64,000 nt of DNA from Pedobacter sp. BS3 (lineage in GTDB: Bacteria; Bacteroidota; Bacteroidia; Sphingobacteriales; Sphingobacteriaceae), in the NCBI RefSeq assembly GCF_008274585.1, contig NZ_VTRT01000003.1, positions 124,001-188,000 on the forward strand, given 5' to 3'. Numbering within the stretch: position 1 is the first letter of the stretch; every line of letters starts with the position of its first letter. The notes beneath the pieces were generated by a model, which worked only from the letters and a program-made list of their open reading frames with translations, had not been told where the DNA came from and made no database searches. The position numbers were made by a program, and so were the translations under genes. This document shows, in pieces, positions 15,760-31,316 of the stretch.

Positions 15760-18700
15760 ATGAAAAACCAAAATCCCAGTTCCTCGCTCAGTAAAAAGCT
15801 TATTGTAATTATTCCGGCGGTTATCTTGCTGGCACTGATTGCTTTTCTGGTAAGCAAACGGCATAAAAGCGTTACCGATAAGCAACGTTACGCTCAATAC
15901 ATTGATGCCTATACATCGGGTATCATTTCCAAAAAAAGCGCCATCCGCATTCACCTGACCGGTTCGGTGCAAACCCTTGGCGCTGTTGGCGAAGCTGATA
16001 AACGGGAACTGTTCAGCTTCTCGCCGGAGATAAAAGGAAAAGCCTACTGGATAGATGCCCAGACCATTGAGTTCAGGCCGGACGAAGACCTCTCTCCCGG
16101 CAAGGAATATGACGCTACTTTTCACCTCAGCGAGGTATCGCCTACGGAAAAGGGACTGGAAGATTTTGATTTTACTTTTACCATTATGAAACCGGGACTT
16201 AGCCTGAGCCAGAATGGCCTGGTTTCTCAAAACAATACTTCCCTGGATTACATGAAGCTTACGGGCGAGATCGTTACAGCCGATTCGGAAAAGCCGGAAA
16301 CCATAGAGAAATGCCTGCAGGTTATGTACACTCAGCAGCTTCGTGTTAAATGGCAGCATAATCCCGAAAAAAAGACATCTGTATTTACCATAGACAGCAT
16401 TAAGAGAGAAAAAACGGAGCAATCCTTACAATTAAACTGGAACGGCGACGCCATCCACGCGAACGATAACGGTAAAGAAATACTCCCCGTTCCTGCGGTA
16501 GGCGATTTTAAGGTGCTAGCTATTAAAGCCGTGCAGCAGGACGAAGATTACGCGTTGGTGCAGTTTTCCGATCCGGTAAGTGTATCGCAAGACCTTACGG
16601 GACTAATTACTCTTGGCACTTTAACCGATTTACGTTATACCATTGAGGGAAGCCAGGTTAAAGTTTATTCGCCCGACCCGCTGGAAGGCAATTATGCCGT
16701 AACGGTGCTTCAGGGCATTGAAAATATCAGCAATAAAAAACTTCAGGGCGGCGTCACTTCAAACGTTGTTTTTGAAAATAAGCTGCCGGCCGTAAGCATT
16801 GAAGGTACGGGAACCATCCTGCCCAATTCAGGAAAGCTGCTGCTACCCTTTGAGGCTATAAACCTGAACGCGGTTGATGTAACCATTATCAAAATTTATG
16901 AGAACAATGTGCCCCAGTTTTTCCAGAGCAATAATTACAAGGAAAGCAATGATTTACGGCGTGTCGGCAAGCCTGTTGTGCAGAAAACTATCCGCCTTGA
17001 CGAAGATAAATCACTCAACCTGCACAAAAAGAACCGCTTTACCTTAGACCTGGACAAGCTGTTAAAAACAGAACCCGGCGCCATTTACCATGTCACCATC
17101 GGTTTCAGGCAGGAATATAACGTGTATAAATGCGGTTCGGCAAAACAGGCAGCCGACAATAACGAAGATGAAGGAGCGTATGATTATTATGGCTATGGCG
17201 AGAAAATTGACGAGGATGATGATTTCTGGGAACGTTATAATAATTACTACCCGCCGCATTATCGCTGGAACGACCGGGATAATCCCTGTACACCCTCCTA
17301 CTACACTAACGACCGCTGGGCAAGCCGTAACCTGATGGCTTCTAACATTGGCCTTATGGCTAAACGCGGCAACGACAACAGCATGCTGGTTGCGGCAACC
17401 GATTTACTGACCACCCAGCCGCTCAGTGGTATCACCATAGAACTATTAGATTACCAGAAACAGGTGCTATATACAACAAAAACGGGTTCCGACGGCTTAG
17501 CTTCGTTTGAGCTGAAACGCAAACCGTTCCTGTTAATCGCCAAAAATGGTAGCGAACGCGGGTATCTTAAGCTGGATGACGGAAATTCCCTACCGCTTAG
17601 CCGCTTCGATGTAGGCGGCGATGTGATACAAAACGGGCTGAAAGGTTTCATCTATGGTGAACGTGGCGTATGGCGACCCGGCGATTCCATTTACCTGTCA
17701 TTCATACTCGAAGATAAACAGCAAAAATTGCCTCCAACCTACCCGGTCACTTTTGAATTTTATAATCCCCGCGGGCAACTAGTGCAGAAAACCATTAACG
17801 GCAAACCGCTTAACGGGTTTTACACCTTTAAAACCGCAACCATAAGCACTGCTCCCACAGGTAACTGGACAGCTAAAGTAAAGGCCGGCGGCGCTGTTTT
17901 CCAGAAAACGGTAAAGGTAGAAACCATTATGCCCAACCGCCTGAAAATCAATTTCGATATTGGTAACCGCACCTATCTCACCAATCAGAACGGTTCGGCA
18001 GCGACACTCTCGGCAAAATGGCTGTTCGGCACCATTGCCAAAAATCTCAAAGCCAAAGTGGATGTAAACCTGAACACCATGCAAACCACGTTTAAAGGCT
18101 TTGAAGATTATACATTTGATAATCCAACTGTCGCGTTTCAATCGCAGCTAACATCGGTATTTGAAGGAACCTTAGATGAAAATGGCTCTACCCGTGTTAA
18201 TACCAACCTGAACGAAGGACATGCCGCTCCCGGGGTGCTGAAAGCCAATTTTACCACCAAAGTGTTTGAGCCCGGCGGCAACTTCAGTATCGATAACTTC
18301 AGTATTCCCTATCACGTTTATAGCAATTACCTGGGAATAAGAACGCCGCAGGGCGATAAGCTGAGCGGCATGCTGGTAACCGGAAAAGACCATCGTATAG
18401 ATTTCGTAGATGTTGACCGCGACGGCAAGCTGCTCAGCGGCACTAAAACCGTGCAGCTTGAATTGTATAAAGTGCAATGGCGCTGGTGGTGGGAACAGGA
18501 TAACCAGGAAACGTATGCCAATTTCACGCAGGATAACTACAATAAAATCCTGAAGAAGGATTACGTTACACTAACCAACGGACGCGGCTCATGGACATTG
18601 CGTATCAATGAACCTGAATGGGGCCGTTATCTCATACTTGTCCGCGATTTAAGTGGCGGACATGTTACCGGTAAATCGGTATATGTCGACTGGCCGGGAT

Positions 18701-21339
18701 GGGCACAGCGTGAACAACGCGACAACCCTACAGAAGCGTCCATGCTTTCGTTTACAGCCAATAAAACCAAATTTACCGTCGGCGAAAACATCGTGCTAAC
18801 CATTCCTACCGCTAAGAACGGCCGGGCGCTTATTTCCATAGAAAATGGCAGCAAGATTTTAAAAACCTATTGGACGGATACCCGTGCGGGACAAACACAA
18901 TTTACATTCAGGGCCGAAAAGGAAATGGCGCCTAACGTATTTGCCAATGTTACGCTGCTGCAGCCTCACGCCCAAACGGTGAATGACCTGCCTATACGCA
19001 TGTACGGCGCTATTCCGCTCCTTATTGAAGACCCGCAGACCATACTGAAACCGGTTATCAGAATGGCGGATAAGCTGCGTCCCGAAACCGAAAGCAGCAT
19101 CACGGTAAGCGAGCAGCAGGGCAAAGCCATGACGTATACCATCGCCCTGGTTGACGAAGGGCTGCTTGACCTCACCCGCTTTAAAACTCCCGATCCGCAC
19201 AGCGTATTTTACGCCCGTGAAGGTCTCGGTGTAAAAACCTGGGATTTATTTGATAACGTACTGGGCGCCTGGGGCGGCGATTTACAACGCATACTCAGTA
19301 TCGGCGGCGACGGAAGCATCAACCGGAATCTGAACCCGGCCAAGGCCAACCGATTTAAACCCGTAATTAAGTTCATGGGGCCGTTTTACCTGCCTAAAGG
19401 CGATAGTAAAACCCACCGCTTCAAGCTGCCGCAATATGTGGGCGCTGTACGGGCGATGGTCATTGCCGGTCAGGATGGCGCTTATGGCAATGCCGAGAAA
19501 TCGGTGCAGGTTAAAAAGCCGTTAATGCTGATGGCTACCCTGCCGCGGGTAATCGGCCCCGGCGAAACCTTTACCCTACCGGCAACGGTATTTGCCACCG
19601 AAAACAATATCAAAAAGGTCAACGTACAGTTGCAAACCAGGAATCTACAGGTAAGCGGCAGCGCCACACAGCAGATAAGCTACGCACAACCCGGCGAGCA
19701 AATGGTATATTACCAGGTAAAAGTGCCCGAAATTACCGGTGTTGCTACCGTTCGCCTTATCGCACAAAGCGGTACTGAAAAAGCCGTTTATGATACCGAA
19801 ATCGAAATCAGGAACCCGAACCCATATATTACCAATACCACGGCATCAGTTATACAGCCCGGTGATACCTGGAAAACAAGCTATACGGCCATCGGTATAG
19901 CTGGCACCAACTCCGGCAGTGTGGAAGTTTCGTCCATTCCGGCAATCAACCTCAAAAAACGCCTGGGCTTCCTGATACAATACCCGCATGGCTGTGTAGA
20001 GCAAACCACTTCATCCGTATTCCCGCAGTTGTATTTAGACCGGCTGATGGAGCTTTCGCAATCGCAAAAAGCGGGCACCGAACGAAACATTAAAGCCGGT
20101 ATCAACAAATTAAGGGAATTTCAAACGGCCGATGGCGGTTTAAGTTACTGGCCGGGTAATTCCGAAGCCGACGAATGGGGCAGCAACTATGCCGGTCATT
20201 TCCTGGTCGAAGCCCAGAAATCAGGCTATAGCCTTCCTGTTGGTATGCTCGATGGCTTAACCCGGTATCTCAGGAACAAGGCGGCAAACTGGGCGCCCGG
20301 CACGACCAATTTCTATGGCGGCGATTTAGTGCAAGCCTATCGTTTATATGTGCTTGCGCTGGCCGGTAAAGCCGATATCGCGGCCATGAACCGCTTACGG
20401 GCATTTCAGTATCTTTCCGTGAGCGCCAAATGGCGACTCGCCGCGGCTTATAAGTTAGCCGGTCAGACTGATATTGCCGTAAAACTGATTAGCGGACTGG
20501 AAACCAGCATAAAACCCTACCACCAATCGGGCGGCACGTATGGCTCCGATGTTCGCGATGAAGCCATGATACTGGAAACCCTCACCTTGCTTGGTCAGCG
20601 GTCAAAAGCCGTACAACTGGTGCAGCACCTGGCGTCAAAGCTTGGCGAAGATAGCTGGTACAGCACGCAAACTACCGCTTACAGCCTGTTAGCCATCGCC
20701 AAATTCTGCGGTACCGGCAAAAGTCAGCTGAACTATACCTGCACATTAAATGGCAAAAAGGCTGCTGTTCACACCAATAAATACGTAAATACCATGCCGC
20801 TCGACTTTAACGGCAACAGCCTGGTTATCAATAATACCGGCAGCCAGGTGCTGTTTGTCACCGTAACGGTGCAGGGACAGCCTGCCGCGGGGCAGAATAA
20901 TTTCATGCCCAACCGCAACGATGTGCTGCAAATGAACGTCAGCTATAAATATCTGAACGGAAAGCCCATCGACCCTGCCGAAATCAAACAGGGAACAGAC
21001 TTTTACGCCGAAGTCACGTTGAAAAATCCGGGCGGCAGAGGTTATTACGAGCAAATGGCCTTAACGCAGATATTTCCGTCGGGTTGGGAGATTATCAATA
21101 CCCGCTTAAACGACAACGAAGGAGCGCTGGCGTCGTCGCCCTATACGTACCGCGACATCCGCGACGACCGGGTGTTTACCTACTTTAATATCCGGGAATA
21201 CGAAACGCTGACCTTTAAAGTGCTGCTCAACGCGTCGTACGCCGGGAGCTATTACCTGCCGGCCGTTCAATGCGAAGCCATGTACGATAATACCATCAGT
21301 GCGATGGAACGCGGCGAGTGGGTGCAGGTAGTACGGTAA
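15760..21339 (+). CDS. Alpha-2-macroglobulin family protein (bacterial ECAM-like)
   Basis: A 1859-residue periplasmic protease-trapping protein. A single N-terminal membrane segment (residues 13-34) anchors it. Multiple macroglobulin domains follow (SDGLASFELKR, GFIYGERGVWRPGDSIYLSF), with a Tyr/Asp-rich insert near residues 465-520 typical of Bacteroidota members. The thioester motif GCVEQ is intact at residues 1411-1415 (Cys1412, Gln1415), followed by the alpha-helical thioester domain. Such proteins usually sit directly before pbpC, and are thought to protect the cell envelope with that peptidoglycan synthase. Here pbpC is over 1.1 kb further on, beyond a RAYT and REPs. Confidence 0.95.
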   Translation: MKNQNPSSSLSKKLIVIIPAVILLALIAFLVSKRHKSVTDKQRYAQYIDAYTSGIISKKSAIRIHLTGSVQTLGAVGEADKRELFSFSPEIKGKAYWIDAQTIEFRPDEDLSPGKEYDATFHLSEVSPTEKGLEDFDFTFTIMKPGLSLSQNGLVSQNNTSLDYMKLTGEIVTADSEKPETIEKCLQVMYTQQLRVKWQHNPEKKTSVFTIDSIKREKTEQSLQLNWNGDAIHANDNGKEILPVPAVGDFKVLAIKAVQQDEDYALVQFSDPVSVSQDLTGLITLGTLTDLRYTIEGSQVKVYSPDPLEGNYAVTVLQGIENISNKKLQGGVTSNVVFENKLPAVSIEGTGTILPNSGKLLLPFEAINLNAVDVTIIKIYENNVPQFFQSNNYKESNDLRRVGKPVVQKTIRLDEDKSLNLHKKNRFTLDLDKLLKTEPGAIYHVTIGFRQEYNVYKCGSAKQAADNNEDEGAYDYYGYGEKIDEDDDFWERYNNYYPPHYRWNDRDNPCTPSYYTNDRWASRNLMASNIGLMAKRGNDNSMLVAATDLLTTQPLSGITIELLDYQKQVLYTTKTGSDGLASFELKRKPFLLIAKNGSERGYLKLDDGNSLPLSRFDVGGDVIQNGLKGFIYGERGVWRPGDSIYLSFILEDKQQKLPPTYPVTFEFYNPRGQLVQKTINGKPLNGFYTFKTATISTAPTGNWTAKVKAGGAVFQKTVKVETIMPNRLKINFDIGNRTYLTNQNGSAATLSAKWLFGTIAKNLKAKVDVNLNTMQTTFKGFEDYTFDNPTVAFQSQLTSVFEGTLDENGSTRVNTNLNEGHAAPGVLKANFTTKVFEPGGNFSIDNFSIPYHVYSNYLGIRTPQGDKLSGMLVTGKDHRIDFVDVDRDGKLLSGTKTVQLELYKVQWRWWWEQDNQETYANFTQDNYNKILKKDYVTLTNGRGSWTLRINEPEWGRYLILVRDLSGGHVTGKSVYVDWPGWAQREQRDNPTEASMLSFTANKTKFTVGENIVLTIPTAKNGRALISIENGSKILKTYWTDTRAGQTQFTFRAEKEMAPNVFANVTLLQPHAQTVNDLPIRMYGAIPLLIEDPQTILKPVIRMADKLRPETESSITVSEQQGKAMTYTIALVDEGLLDLTRFKTPDPHSVFYAREGLGVKTWDLFDNVLGAWGGDLQRILSIGGDGSINRNLNPAKANRFKPVIKFMGPFYLPKGDSKTHRFKLPQYVGAVRAMVIAGQDGAYGNAEKSVQVKKPLMLMATLPRVIGPGETFTLPATVFATENNIKKVNVQLQTRNLQVSGSATQQISYAQPGEQMVYYQVKVPEITGVATVRLIAQSGTEKAVYDTEIEIRNPNPYITNTTASVIQPGDTWKTSYTAIGIAGTNSGSVEVSSIPAINLKKRLGFLIQYPHGCVEQTTSSVFPQLYLDRLMELSQSQKAGTERNIKAGINKLREFQTADGGLSYWPGNSEADEWGSNYAGHFLVEAQKSGYSLPVGMLDGLTRYLRNKAANWAPGTTNFYGGDLVQAYRLYVLALAGKADIAAMNRLRAFQYLSVSAKWRLAAAYKLAGQTDIAVKLISGLETSIKPYHQSGGTYGSDVRDEAMILETLTLLGQRSKAVQLVQHLASKLGEDSWYSTQTTAYSLLAIAKFCGTGKSQLNYTCTLNGKKAAVHTNKYVNTMPLDFNGNSLVINNTGSQVLFVTVTVQGQPAAGQNNFMPNRNDVLQMNVSYKYLNGKPIDPAEIKQGTDFYAEVTLKNPGGRGYYEQMALTQIFPSGWEIINTRLNDNEGALASSPYTYRDIRDDRVFTYFNIREYETLTFKVLLNASYAGSYYLPAVQCEAMYDNTISAMERGEWVQVVR

Positions 21340-21350
21340 ATGAAGATGGC

Positions 21351-21458
21351 TTTTAGAAAAGCAGGTGCAGTAAAACGTGGGCAACGATAGTCCCGTGTTA
21401 CGCTCATACGCCTACATGCGTTATGCACAAGGCCGGTATCCGCTGCACCCGGGTTTAA
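21351..21458 (-). repeat. Dispersed ~110-bp repeat, copy 1
   Basis: The reverse complement contains GTGCAGCGGATACCGGCCTT, GGCGTATGAGCG, ACACGGGACTATCG and ends CTGCTTTTCTAAAA. Four related copies lie at 28370-28474, 39866-39991, 46382-46480 and 47563-47670. It begins 12 bp after the macroglobulin stop codon. Confidence 0.75.
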
Positions 21459-21496
21459 CTGGCGGGGACTGTGCTGGTATGATGCAAACTAACGCC

Positions 21497-21520
21497 CCGA
21501 TTCGTGTCTCCACGAATCGG
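21497..21520 (+). repeat. REP hairpin 1
   Basis: CCGATTCGTG - tctc - CACGAATCGG, a perfect 10-bp stem with a 4-nt loop, preceded by CTAACGCC. First of the array around the RAYT gene. Confidence 0.8.
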
Positions 21521-21523
21521 TAA

Positions 21524-21594
21524 AAGGAGGCTTGATGGAGACACAAAATCTGGCTTGGATAAATAATAACTAAAATGGATAAGAACCTGTTTAC
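21524..21594 (+). repeat. 71-bp direct duplication containing the RAYT start codon (upstream copy)
   Basis: Identical base for base to 21757-21827, 233 bp downstream. It contains an ATG at 21575 and the codons for MDKNLFT, then runs straight into REP hairpin 2 instead of the rest of the RAYT gene, so it is a decapitated 5' fragment. Confidence 0.85.
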
Positions 21595-21601
21595 TAACGC
21601 C

Positions 21602-21648
21602 CCGGTTCGTGTCTTCACGAATCGGTAAAAAGCATCGTGAAGACACGA
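21602..21648 (+). repeat. REP hairpin 2 with adjoining small hairpin
   Basis: CCGGTTCGTG - tctt - CACGAATCGG (21602-21625, one G-T pair) is followed by TCGTG - aaga - CACGA (21635-21648), in which loop and stem are the inverse of the REP sequence. This pairing of head-to-head units recalls a BIME. Confidence 0.75.
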
Positions 21649-21729
21649 AGCTTGGCCCGGAGATTTGATAATTGATTTAAACAAACGATAATGAGAAAGC
21701 TAATTGCAGCAATCAATATGGCTAACGCC

Positions 21730-21753
21730 CCGGTTCGTGTCTTCACGAACCGG
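21730..21753 (+). repeat. REP hairpin 3
   Basis: CCGGTTCGTG - tctt - CACGAACCGG, a perfect stem 55 bp upstream of the RAYT start codon. The duplicated 71-bp segment follows it. Confidence 0.8.
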
Positions 21754-21807
21754 CATAAGGAGGCTTGATGGAGACACAAAATCTGGCTTGGATAAATAAT
21801 AACTAAA

Positions 21808-22365
21808 ATGGATAAGAACCTGTTTACCGCCCGAAGAAAATCATTTATAGAAACTGGCAAAATTTACTTTTGGACAGCTACCATGAATAAGTGGATGCGC
21901 CTGTTTGAAAATAACTCTTTTAAAATACCGGTTTTAGATTCGTTATCCTATTTGAGCCGGATGGCCAAAATAGATGTTTTTGGATTTGTAATCATGCCCA
22001 ATCACATTCACCTCATCTGGCGGATGAACGCATTAAACGGGAAAGAATCGGCACATGGCTCCTTTTTGAAATATACTGCTCATCAATTCAAGAAACTGAT
22101 GCAGAAAGAGAAGATGAATATGCATCCCTATTTGGTAAACGCCAGTAATAAGCAATATGAATTCTGGCAGAAAGATTCTCTGGCTGTTGAATTGTATAGC
22201 AGAGAGGTAGCCTTTCAAAAATTGGACTATATTCATAACAATCCTTTGGCTGCACATTGGAATCTTGTTACCCATCCCTGTGATTATGAATATTCTTCCG
22301 CATCATTTTATGAATTGGGAGAAAATAAACATACCTTTTTAAAAGATTTAAGATTTGAGTTTTAA
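21808..22365 (+). CDS. REP-associated tyrosine transposase (RAYT, IS200/IS605-type Y1 nuclease)
   Basis: A 185-residue single-stranded-DNA transposase/nuclease-like protein. The HUH motif lies in VIMPNHIHLIW (His66, His68) and the catalytic tyrosine is Tyr141 in DYIHNNPLAAHW, both as in the Y1 transposase family. It has no mobile-element ends of its own; instead it is flanked by REP hairpins (three upstream, two downstream), the standard setting for RAYTs, which are thought to spread or process REPs. Its 5' end is duplicated 233 bp upstream. It interrupts the usual macroglobulin-pbpC gene pair. Confidence 0.9.
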   Translation: MDKNLFTARRKSFIETGKIYFWTATMNKWMRLFENNSFKIPVLDSLSYLSRMAKIDVFGFVIMPNHIHLIWRMNALNGKESAHGSFLKYTAHQFKKLMQKEKMNMHPYLVNASNKQYEFWQKDSLAVELYSREVAFQKLDYIHNNPLAAHWNLVTHPCDYEYSSASFYELGENKHTFLKDLRFEF

Positions 22366-22394
22366 TTTCGCCTTGACTCCTGTCTTCTAACGCC

Positions 22395-22450
22395 CCGATT
22401 CGTGTCTCCACGAATCGGAATAAGAAGCTTCGTGAAGACACGAAGCTTGG
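22395..22450 (+). repeat. REP hairpin 4 with inverted companion hairpin
   Basis: CCGATTCGTG - tctc - CACGAATCGG (22395-22418), then AAGCTTCGTG - aaga - CACGAAGCTT (about 22426-22449). It lies 30 bp after the RAYT stop codon. Confidence 0.75.
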
Positions 22451-22471
22451 CCACACAAAGCTTGGCTTAGA

Positions 22472-24922
22472 ATGATTTTTAACGAAAATACAAATCACGA
22501 TAAACATACGCCCCGGTTCGTGTCTTCACGAATCGGTATAAAAAAGCTTCACGAAAAAATAAATTGGAGCATACTCATCAGCGATGGCGTATTTCTGCTG
22601 CTTTTCCTGGCATTCTGGTTTTCTCTGCCACGGAAATTGTTCCGGTCGCCTACCTCTTACGTTATTGAAGCAGCCGACGGGCGTTTGCTCAGCGCTGCCA
22701 TTGCATCCGATGGGCAATGGCGTTTCCCCCCGCCCGATACCGTTCCGGATAAATTTATCAAGTGCATTCTCGCTTTCGAGGATAAGCGCTTTTACCATCA
22801 TCCGGGTATCGACATTTTCGCTCTGGCACGTGCCATCCGGCAGGATATCCGGGCCAAAGCCATCGTGAGCGGTGGTAGCACCATCAGCATGCAGGTTATT
22901 CGCTTATCGCGAAACAGGGAACGTACCATTGGGCAAAAGTTAGTGGAAATGCTTCTTGCTGTGCGATTGGAATTGCGTTATTCCAAACAGCAGATTATGC
23001 AACTATATGCCGGTAACGCTCCCTTTGGCAGCAACGTAGTTGGTCTTGATGCGGCCGCGTGGCGCTATTACGGACGAAGCGCAGAAAACCTTTCCTGGGG
23101 CGAGATGGCTACGCTGGCCGTATTGCCCAACAGCCCGGCGCTGGTACATCCCGGCAGAAACGAAAAGCAGCTTATCCGCAAACGCAACCAGCTCATTGAC
23201 CGTTTGCACGAGCTCGGGTACATCGACCCGTCAACCGCCGAACTTTCCAAGCTGGAGCCTGTTCCCGGAAAACCGTTTCCTTTGCCCAATGAAGCTCCTC
23301 ACCTGCTCAGTCGTTTTAAAACCGAAAGGTCAAAGCTCCATGTGTCATCCACTCGGATTATCACCACCATCAATTATAACCTGCAAACCCAGATTAACGA
23401 TTTACTGAAACGTTACAATAACCGTTACCGGGCCAATGATATCAATAATATTGCTGCCCTGGTGCTGGACGTAAAAACTGGTACTGTGCGGTGTTACGCC
23501 GGTAATATCTATGAGCCAGCCAATAAAGAGCTGGAAAGTCACGTGGATATGATACGTGCGCCTCGAAGCCCGGGCAGCACGCTGAAACCCTTGCTCTATG
23601 CCAGCATGCTTACCGATGGCTTTTTATTACCCCACACACTGGTGCCCGATATTCCAACCCAGATTGCCGGTTATTCGCCGCAAAACTATGATTTAGGCTA
23701 CGATGGCGCCATCCCCGCAGATAAGGCGCTCAGTCGTTCGCTGAATGTACCAGCAGTCCGTATGCTTCAGCAATATAAATACGAGCGCTTTTATGACCAG
23801 CTGAAAAAGCTCGGTTTCTCCACCCTCACCCAGCCCGCCGACCATTATGGACTATCGCTGATACTGGGCGGCAGCGAGGTAACTCTGTGGGATTTGGCAC
23901 GAACCTATATGGGTATGGCCCGGACATTAAACCATTTTAACGATTACCGGGGCCGCTACAATCCGCACGATTACGACAATCCGGTTTATATCCGGCAAAA
24001 TGCCCCGGAACATATCCGGGTTGACCATTTACCGGCCAGGTATATATTAGACCATGCGGCAATCTGGTCGGCCTTTAACGCCATGGAAGAAGTGATGCGT
24101 CCCGGCGATGAAGGCTTATGGGAGCAGTTTACCTCGTCGCAGCGTATCGCCTGGAAAACCGGAACAAGCTTTGGCTTTCGTGATGCCTGGGCCGTGGGGT
24201 TAACACCCGGATATGTAGTATGCGTATGGGTGGGCAATGCCGACGGCGAAGGACGCCCGGGTCTTACCGGAATTGAAGCGGCGGCTCCGGTACTGTTTGA
24301 TATTTTCAGGTTGCTGCCACAAGGCAAATGGTTCCCAGTTCCTAAAACCAAGCTCAGAAAACTGAAAGTTTGCAAGCAAAGCGGGTATAAGGCCGGCGAT
24401 TACTGTACCGATATTGTCGAAGAGCTTGTTCCGGCAGCGGGATTACGCACCCCGGTTTGCCCCTATCACCGCCTCATCCACCTGGATAAAACCGGCACGT
24501 ACCAGGTCACCGACCGTTGCGAAAGCGTGGTTAATATGATTCACAGATCGTGGTTCGTGCTTCCTCCTTCTATGGAATACTACTATAAGATCCGCAATAG
24601 CGGTTACAAAATGTTGCCTCCTTTTAAACCGGGCTGCGATGATACCGGCAGCAATGCGGTAATGGATATGATCTATCCTAAAAACAACGCATCGGTATAT
24701 ATTCCATTAGAAATTGACGGCAGCCGCGGTAAGCTGATCCTTTCGGTAGCGCACCGTAATCCCGGTATTACCATTTACTGGCACATCGATAATCAATATA
24801 TCGGCAGCACACGAAGCTTTCATCAGATGGCTGTAAGTCCGCCACCCGGCAGGCATATCCTCACCTTGGTCGATGAAAACGGTGAGCGTTTGGTACAAAC
24901 GTTTACGATATTGGAGAAGTAA
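22472..24922 (+). CDS. pbpC: Penicillin-binding protein 1C (peptidoglycan glycosyltransferase/transpeptidase)
   Basis: An 816-residue membrane-anchored peptidoglycan synthase-like protein. One transmembrane segment (36-52) precedes the GT51 domain with catalytic Glu103 in FEDKRFYHHPG and GGSTISMQVIRL. The transpeptidase domain has SPGSTLKP (Ser369, Lys372), SRSLNVPA and KTGTS, and the C-terminus carries a BiPBP_C domain. The first 27 residues are odd: they are encoded by a REP hairpin (22513-22536) and its flank, with no ribosome-binding site before the 22472 ATG and no ATG in frame after the REP until well into the gene. The true start may be a non-ATG codon. Confidence 0.92.
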   Translation: MIFNENTNHDKHTPRFVSSRIGIKKLHEKINWSILISDGVFLLLFLAFWFSLPRKLFRSPTSYVIEAADGRLLSAAIASDGQWRFPPPDTVPDKFIKCILAFEDKRFYHHPGIDIFALARAIRQDIRAKAIVSGGSTISMQVIRLSRNRERTIGQKLVEMLLAVRLELRYSKQQIMQLYAGNAPFGSNVVGLDAAAWRYYGRSAENLSWGEMATLAVLPNSPALVHPGRNEKQLIRKRNQLIDRLHELGYIDPSTAELSKLEPVPGKPFPLPNEAPHLLSRFKTERSKLHVSSTRIITTINYNLQTQINDLLKRYNNRYRANDINNIAALVLDVKTGTVRCYAGNIYEPANKELESHVDMIRAPRSPGSTLKPLLYASMLTDGFLLPHTLVPDIPTQIAGYSPQNYDLGYDGAIPADKALSRSLNVPAVRMLQQYKYERFYDQLKKLGFSTLTQPADHYGLSLILGGSEVTLWDLARTYMGMARTLNHFNDYRGRYNPHDYDNPVYIRQNAPEHIRVDHLPARYILDHAAIWSAFNAMEEVMRPGDEGLWEQFTSSQRIAWKTGTSFGFRDAWAVGLTPGYVVCVWVGNADGEGRPGLTGIEAAAPVLFDIFRLLPQGKWFPVPKTKLRKLKVCKQSGYKAGDYCTDIVEELVPAAGLRTPVCPYHRLIHLDKTGTYQVTDRCESVVNMIHRSWFVLPPSMEYYYKIRNSGYKMLPPFKPGCDDTGSNAVMDMIYPKNNASVYIPLEIDGSRGKLILSVAHRNPGITIYWHIDNQYIGSTRSFHQMAVSPPPGRHILTLVDENGERLVQTFTILEK
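22513..22536 (+). repeat. REP hairpin 5, inside the predicted 5' end of pbpC
   Basis: CCGGTTCGTG - tctt - CACGAATCGG. If translation starts at 22472 this hairpin encodes residues 14-22 of PBP1C (RFVSSRIG region) without a stop codon. Confidence 0.8.
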
Positions 24923-28244: not shown

Positions 28245-28684
28245 TTGCCCGAAGGATGATTTATTGAGATACGATCTTAGCTGTACGAACAATACAGCAC
28301 TACTACCCCGATTAACCGTTAAGCAGCAACCTTCCGGATACTTTAATAGCAGCGATGCCTGGTGTTAGCTAAACCGGATGGCAGCGGATACCGGCCTTGT
28401 GCGGTTAGGCTTGCAGGCGTATGAGCGTACAGCCGGGCTACCGGAACCCAAGCGATGCGGACACTGCTTTTCAAGAGCGAATGATGTGCTATAAGGCTCT
28501 TATCCGGGGTAAATTTACCGTCTTAAATTAATTTACTTTAACTACCCGTTTTATCAGGCTTTTAACTATTTTTAGCGCCGCAATGAAAAGGCCTTGTTTA
28601 CCCTTTTTGACGGGTTTTTAACAAATTTTTTATTGTGGTTTCTGGTAAAATTGCAGATTAACGATTAAGTACAGTTTAAAACGA
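28245..28684. other. Gene-free interval upstream of lysC
   Basis: 440 bp without a plausible gene. It contains copy 2 of the dispersed 110-bp repeat (28370-28474) and then an AT-rich stretch (about 28500-28680) that must hold the lysC promoter; GTAAAATTGCA at about 28648 is a one-mismatch -7 box. I see no recognisable lysine riboswitch. Confidence 0.55.
28370..28474 (+). repeat. Dispersed ~110-bp repeat, copy 2
   Basis: TAAACCGGATGGCAGCGGAT, TGCGGTTAGGCTTGCAGG, CGTATGAGCGTACAGCCGGG and a terminal CTGCTTTTC. Nearly identical to copy 5 at 47563-47670 in its first 80 bases. Confidence 0.8.
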
Positions 28685-31239: not shown

Positions 31240-31292
31240 GACGTTAGCCTTATTTTTTCTGGATTACAAACAAAAATCACCCGGCTTTCGCC

Positions 31293-31316
31293 CCGGTTGG
31301 TGTCTCCACCAACCGG
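31293..31316 (+). repeat. REP hairpin 7 with compensatory stem changes
   Basis: CCGGTTGGTG - tctc - CACCAACCGG. Relative to the RAYT array, C in the left arm became G and the matching G became C, so the stem is kept while the sequence changed. Confidence 0.75.

Follow-up and report, generated by a model that had tools for sequence, protein, structure and literature searches.

The window analysed here comprises 64,000 nucleotides of a genome listed as Pedobacter sp. BS3 (Sphingobacteriaceae; assembly GCF_008274585.1, contig NZ_VTRT01000003.1, positions 124,001 to 188,000). It carries a gene for a REP-associated tyrosine transposase (RAYT, or TnpA-REP), surrounded by repetitive extragenic palindromes (REPs), several of them in inverted pairs (REP doublets forming hairpins, REPINs). 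The module lies between the genes for a bacterial alpha-2-macroglobulin (A2M) and penicillin-binding protein 1C (pbpC), and its structure, its address and its probable history are considered below. The features of the interval are, in window coordinates:

15760-21339, + strand: A2M of Pedobacter type, 1859 amino acids (open reading frame, ORF; Pfam bMG domains; tree of the C-terminal 350 residues)
21351-21476, + strand: copy of a dispersed repeat some 125 nt long, unrelated to the REPs (repeat search)
21489-21594, + strand: stretch with a REP and the RAYT 5' end (about the first 20 nt of the coding sequence), 95% identical to 21722-21827
21493-21520, + strand: REP 1, loop TCTC; degenerate inverted partner at 21532-21547
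21594-21656, + strand: REPIN 2, with a REP at 21598-21625 (loop TCTT) and an inverted partner starting at 21634
21726-21753, + strand: REP 3, loop TCTT; degenerate inverted partner at 21765-21780
21808-22365, + strand: RAYT (TnpA-REP), 185 amino acids, HuH histidines H66 and H68, tyrosine Y141
22387-22451, + strand: REPIN 4, complete, a REP with loop TCTC and an inverted partner beginning GCCAAGC
22472-24922, + strand: ORF of pbpC (PBP1C), Pedobacter type
22507-22550, + strand: REPIN 5, second arm lost, within the pbpC ORF

The RAYT frame is the only ORF of at least 100 amino acids between A2M and pbpC, and no tnpB is present there. An earlier reading made from the sequence alone (the sequence-only reading) had recognized a RAYT with REPs at this point, and ORFs, exact REP matches and protein motifs confirm it. 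The intact HIH motif and Tyr141 that it reported also stand: H66, H68 and Tyr141 are invariant across 14 aligned RAYTs, namely that of the window, those of 12 of 16 junction loci carrying the same RAYT type (type A, see below) and one of a distant type B (L044 and L022, which have a stop in frame, were left out, as were L039 and L092). AlphaFold predicts a Y1 transposase fold (best model: mean pLDDT 81.1, with residues 1-12 and 106-114 below 50); the top match of this model in the PDB is 4er8, the complex of E. coli RAYT with a REP hairpin (E 9.7e-7), followed by transposases of the IS200/IS605 type. The protein carries the subclass 2.6 motifs NHIH at position 65, FWQ at 119 and YIHNNP at 141, and by its sequence it is a TnpA-REP resembling subclass 2.6. 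Pfam gave no match to it at E 0.001, and phmmer gave none against solved structures. With the NCBIfam model NF047646 the window RAYT scores 70.5 bits, a Pedobacter copy 68.8 and type B 104, relative to a cut-off of 80 that is a detection threshold and not a biological feature.

Five forward REPs, at 21493, 21598, 21726, 22391 and 22509, match CGCCCCGRTTCGTGTCTYCACGAAYCGG exactly, and shuffled sequences yield none even when up to three mismatches are allowed. Two of their loops read TCTC and three TCTT, the loops that had been claimed. The earlier count of five REPs between the two genes holds for the number of exact forward copies, but the fifth lies within the pbpC ORF, and four inverted partners had been overlooked. 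These accompany the first four REPs: two are good (21634, one mismatch; 22429, none) and two degenerate (21532 and 21765, three mismatches each). Because inverted partners are present, the repeats are REPIN units of the bacterial interspersed mosaic element (BIME) type, with two REPs in inverted orientation and paired hairpins; only the fifth is without a second arm. A complete REPIN reads GCC-CCGG-TTCGTG-TCTY-CACGAA-CCGG, a short spacer, and the inverted GCC-AAGC-TTCGTG-TCTT-CACGAA-GCTT. The foot is GCC on both arms in most copies read, not the canonical 5' GT[AG]G, and the repeats are not classed as canonical GTAG REPs. The DNA folding energy of REPIN 4 is -23.1 kcal/mol, where shuffles average -6.6 (z -8.65). 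An alignment of 17 REPIN units taken from this genome has 94.8% of its cells paired, against 94.0% in shuffles; the covariation score is equalled by 3 of 500 shuffles, and the count of pairs with changes in both positions (three) by 56 of 500. The pairing is in large part plain conservation. A sixth REP match, with two mismatches, begins at 31289; this lone REP-like hairpin (31289-31316) has a different stem (GTTGGTG-TCTC-CACCAAC), and this same variant also lies near a RAYT of 50% identity, with one internal stop, in L210.

A role of the REPs as terminators of the A2M-pbpC pair was considered and rejected for want of evidence, the terminator signal being at chance level: a single terminator-like site was found, on the opposite strand, where shuffles gave 1.2. 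The suggestion that the module separates the transcription of the two genes thus gains no support. Across the window, Rfam gave no match at the gathering score.

The REPs are also dispersed across their own genome. Of 36 exact copies of the pattern GCCNNNNTTCGTGTCTYCACGAA, six belong to the home interval; the remaining 30 are spread over 22 places, matches less than 1 kb apart being taken as one place. In 36 relatives the pattern was found as a single copy in one and not at all in G001, a genome of the same genus; reversed controls gave none. The sequence-only reading had named REPs scattered genome-wide without relation to this RAYT as a refutation, and this is not what is seen: they are genome-wide, but the exact pattern is nearly confined to this genome among the 37 searched. 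REP numbers given here are either exact-pattern counts or matches from a BLAST search of the interval, in which 40 of 111 candidates were scored and which revealed further, diverged copies; 49 REP arms with up to three mismatches were read in loci of this genome, home included. Some REPINs form small tandem clusters with spacings of about 211, 360 and 259 bp (G000 C1:76473-76959, C21:333345-334281 and C23:226879-227210, G000 being the window's genome). At the depth of the search, the genome yielded one full-length copy of the RAYT. Two further RAYT-length matches of 33-34% identity, presumably with REPs of their own, and a fragment were also seen (G000 C22:65932, C25:189480 and C22:218624).

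Several duplications stop at REPs. A truncated copy at C21:50.3 kb, about 95 kb from home, contains the 3' part of the RAYT and two REPINs and is 96% identical over 432 aligned columns. Its end falls, as far as the boundary can be placed, on the GCC foot of the REPIN, and there it interrupts a gene for a LacZ4-like glycosidase of glycoside hydrolase family 2 (GH2; L015 147-1286, G000 C21 near 50 kb), the 380-residue fragment of which matches GH2 profiles up to residue 379, corresponding to position 80 of 302 in Glyco_hydro_2_C. At home, the 106 nt comprising a REP and the RAYT 5' end are doubled (21489-21594 and 21722-21827, 95%). In Pedobacter, locus L032 (11-860) carries, ahead of a longer RAYT copy, four additional fragments of the RAYT N-terminal region with REPs interspersed. 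Immediately before the intact pbpC of L057 stands a second, truncated version of its 5' end (2523-2911), about 50 codons long and broken by a REP pair. Such duplications fit a RAYT acting on REP ends, or they could result from recombination between repeats. The distribution of REPINs and the truncated copy are in line with a unit that moves or multiplies, and the earlier suggestion that the module may still be active gains from the 96% copy, which makes recent activity plausible. The piece between REPIN 2 and REP 3 (21655-21721) has no second copy among the matches listed; we take it to read like the start of a dihydrofolate-reductase-type gene.

The REP module extends into pbpC. When Pedobacter pbpC MNKIPKAFLISD is aligned with the window sequence HEKINWSILISD, the usual methionine position is occupied by CAC at 22550. 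Between the stop at 22433 and the membrane segment, no in-frame ATG, GTG or TTG codons occur other than ATG 22472 and GTG 22520. Both are part of the REP module, because the segment 22472-22550 recurs, with one substitution and one gap, in the 50-kb copy, where pbpC is absent. As the sequence reads, the usual pbpC start codon is lost and translation must begin in the module unless the start is non-standard; which start is used we infer. At 7 of the 16 junctions with type A, the pbpC ATG is preceded, at a distance of at most 40 nt, by the end of a REP-like hairpin (up to three mismatches), and the window arrangement looks like one step beyond this.

The address itself is shared by other RAYTs of this type. 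Of 80 named pbpC loci fetched, six without an A2M match were dropped, leaving 74 junctions, including a few from outside Pedobacter (Solitalea, Chitinophaga, Nubsella and metagenome-assembled genomes). Type-A RAYTs, the type of the window, or their remains occupy 16 of them (a 37-residue remnant in L092, an internal stop in L022 and L044, a partial copy in L039). Six others contain type B, which shares 28% identity with type A and has a different REP, and 52 contain neither; the gap between the genes is below 100 nt in 23 of these and not in the other 29. Other ORFs were seen in the interval of L024, L028, L056 and L078: one of 361-364 amino acids (L056, L078), which we take to resemble a Fic protein, and one of 211 amino acids and unknown function (L024, L028, L078). 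A broader set of 145 genomes represents the genus of G013, a genome that shares an identical pbpC with Pedobacter sp. Leaf170. It yields 20 type-A matches of at least 57% identity (next best 46%), three of which contain a stop. All except that of G135 lie upstream of pbpC in the same orientation, 182-967 nt from its matched part. Similarly, type B at 77% identity or more lies less than 500 nt upstream of pbpC in 7 of 7 genomes; 17 other matches (58% at most) are elsewhere. The sequence-only reading had named the presence of the same interval in all relatives as a refutation, and this holds only in part. In G001 no more than 74 nt separate A2M from pbpC, too little for a RAYT, in keeping with the earlier statement that the two genes are usual neighbours.

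Across 15 named loci, type-A RAYT identities correlate with those of pbpC (r 0.66, Mantel p 2e-4). The RAYT and pbpC trees, each with many unresolved forks, have four sister pairs in common. Over 39 crown Pedobacter junctions, presence of A or B, a combination tried only after separate tests of the two, is clustered on the tree (9 changes against 13.3, reached in 11 of 1000 shuffles); type B alone is unclustered (5 changes against 4.8 in shuffles). Within the Pedobacter lineage, type A is probably a long-standing occupant of the gap between A2M and pbpC. The interval seems to switch occupants, through differential loss from a former pair or through cassette exchange: L092 combines a type-A fragment with what reads like a type-B tail, and in L090 an intact type B stands next to a type-A REP. 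Mutual exclusion of the two types at the genome level was not significant (chance of no overlap 0.32). In the same genus the REP pattern occurs in 18 of 20 type-A carriers against 18 of 125 other genomes (Fisher 3e-11, uncorrected for kinship). Four genomes (G083, G125, G171 and G188) still have a REP less than 1 kb upstream of pbpC, which fits a lost type-A RAYT; G188 now has type B there.

In the window's genus the block looks foreign. Its pbpC shares 73% identity with Pedobacter against 63% with G001, although the single marker MnmA places the window genome nearer to G001 (86%) and G014 (89%) than to the Pedobacter genome G013 (81%). Approximately unbiased (AU) tests reject a grouping of the window with G001 (pbpC p 4e-6; A2M C-terminus p 0.0004); a grouping with G001 and its neighbours gave p 2e-14 and 0.017, respectively. 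The trees used comprised chosen subsets of 25 rows for pbpC and 24 for A2M. In the A2M tree the window falls inside Pedobacter, adjoining a RAYT-A-bearing clade (90/83, within a 95/97 group), and in the pbpC tree it stands at the base of Pedobacter. Since both flanks are of Pedobacter type, the RAYT and its flanks most likely arrived together, and A2M, RAYT and pbpC probably entered this genus jointly by horizontal transfer.

Taken together, the locus is a REPtron resembling subclass 2.6, of a known kind but with an unusual history. The reading that we prefer, at a probability of roughly 0.6, is that an old resident of the Pedobacter A2M-pbpC interval was transferred into this genus within the A2M-RAYT-pbpC block and that its REPs then spread. 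A RAYT with its own GCC-footed REPINs would have settled long ago between the two Pedobacter genes, and the block would later have passed horizontally into the window's genus. REPs of the same family would then have reached some two dozen further places, the sampled relatives being without them. By analogy with known RAYTs, the protein would bind folded single-stranded REPs, cut near the GCC foot via Tyr141 and copy REPINs in trans. REP activity may also have rearranged the home locus, doubling the RAYT 5' end, leaving a truncated copy elsewhere and replacing the start region of pbpC. A more specific account is tentative and stands somewhat short of even odds: that the RAYT moved between genera within the block into a REP-free lineage and seeded about two dozen REP places there, that a REPIN came to supply pbpC with its start codon and first residues, and that two distant RAYT-REP systems alternate in the slot.

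A number of observations weigh against the preferred reading. The 52 junctions with neither RAYT are the majority, and type A alone is unclustered on the pbpC tree (12 changes against 12.5 in shuffles), so that gains and losses must be frequent. Type-A RAYTs also occur at other loci, in G135, where the neighbouring ORFs are presumably secG and groES, and in another genus, in G277, beside what we take to be bioB, and in G285, whose contig ends there. Eighteen genomes carry the REP pattern without a type-A RAYT; as 13 of them have another RAYT match (E 1e-25), specificity of the pattern for type A alone was rejected. The RAYT is less diverged than extrapolation suggests, its identity being 62% where 47% was predicted from pbpC and 37% from A2M, which could reflect saturation or a separate arrival. 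Finally, MnmA is one marker, G001 is apparently the sole other genome of the window's genus in the sets searched, the AU-tested clades were picked after an earlier tree had been seen, and the lost start codon of pbpC is read from one assembly.

These observations bear on three other explanations. The A2M-pbpC interval could be a permissive insertion site that a RAYT entered in Pedobacter and, in a separate event, in the window's lineage. The distant RAYT in 6 of 74 junctions, the other ORFs of L024, L028, L056 and L078, the very different gap lengths and the unclustered distribution of type A all agree with this; we nevertheless consider it unlikely, given the sister pairs common to the RAYT-A and pbpC trees, the Pedobacter type of both window flanks and the clustering of A or B combined. 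Somewhat less probable still is that no transfer took place, a Pedobacter-type A2M-RAYT-pbpC block being ancestral in the family and retained in this genome, while G001 and others replaced or lost it (hidden paralogy). The patchy occurrence of pbpC, with a match at E 1e-100 in 19 of 37 genomes, would suit such a history, but family members that have pbpC show one match each, and the A2M tree sets the window inside Pedobacter next to the RAYT-A clade, even if the pbpC tree leaves it basal. An ordinary recent insertion that newly split the pair, as the sequence-only reading proposed, was rejected as very improbable, since 19 of 20 carriers share the address and both flanks are of Pedobacter type, even though the pair is adjacent without a RAYT in G001 and the 96% copy suggests recent movement.

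Much of this has precedents. Fixed-address RAYTs, varying REP classes at one address, REPs without a RAYT and proposed horizontal transfer are already known (PMC3686654, PMC6006769). Subclass 2.6 of the Bacteroidetes TnpA-REP proteins is described as having no GT[AG]G foot and atypical, weaker flanking structures found by hand (PMC6006769). The window RAYT resembles this subclass in its motifs (NH[LIV]H, WQ, YIH[QN]NP), its length of about 180 amino acids, the SS of the C-terminal extension, the lack of the GT[AG]G foot and the presence of structure copies elsewhere in the genome; it differs in its regular 10-bp stems, TCTY loop, GCC foot and inverted partner, and its HuH-Y spacing is about 75 against a median of 82 (PMC6006769). 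It shares with the E. coli RAYT and its BIMEs (4er8) the predicted fold, the HuH motif with one tyrosine and inverted REP pairs flanking the gene, but not the GTAG foot or the bulged stem, and identity over the structural alignment is 18%. The RAYT orthogroups of Pseudomonas and Stenotrophomonas keep a fixed address at which the REP class may vary, with REPs found without RAYT and horizontal transfer proposed (PMC3686654). The window type is similar in its single chromosomal address and in REPs without their RAYT; there, orthologous RAYTs have differing REP classes, whereas here two RAYTs of 28% identity occupy one interval in different species (PMC3686654). TnpA-REP biochemistry is taken from PMC8266576. 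The Y1 HuH catalytic fold and the end hairpins recall IS200/IS605 elements, from which the locus differs by having no tnpB in the interval, one full-length copy and short REPINs as the dispersed units. In the openly licensed literature we found no paper on this locus, nothing on Pedobacter combined with 'REP-associated tyrosine transposase' and, in a narrow search, no REP serving as a coding start.

If the RAYT and its flanks did move into a REP-free genus, the RAYT-driven spread of REPINs would become datable and could be tested by strain comparison, a natural experiment. Likewise, a REP that provides pbpC with its start codon would show, in a specific example, repeat DNA turned into coding sequence. 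The presence of two distant RAYTs in one interval raises the question of whether selection favours this address beside an envelope enzyme or the site simply tolerates them. A clear REP definition for Bacteroidota also emerges, with a GCC foot and a TTCGTG-TCTY-CACGAA core, where the structures described in PMC6006769 were atypical.

The family of about 125 nt represented at 21351-21476 is a second dispersed repeat, without an Rfam match at the gathering score. Its members are roughly 69-90% alike; five copies lie in the window, the further ones near 28367, 39865, 46374 and 47543, and the matches listed for the genome include 23 beyond that at 21351-21476.

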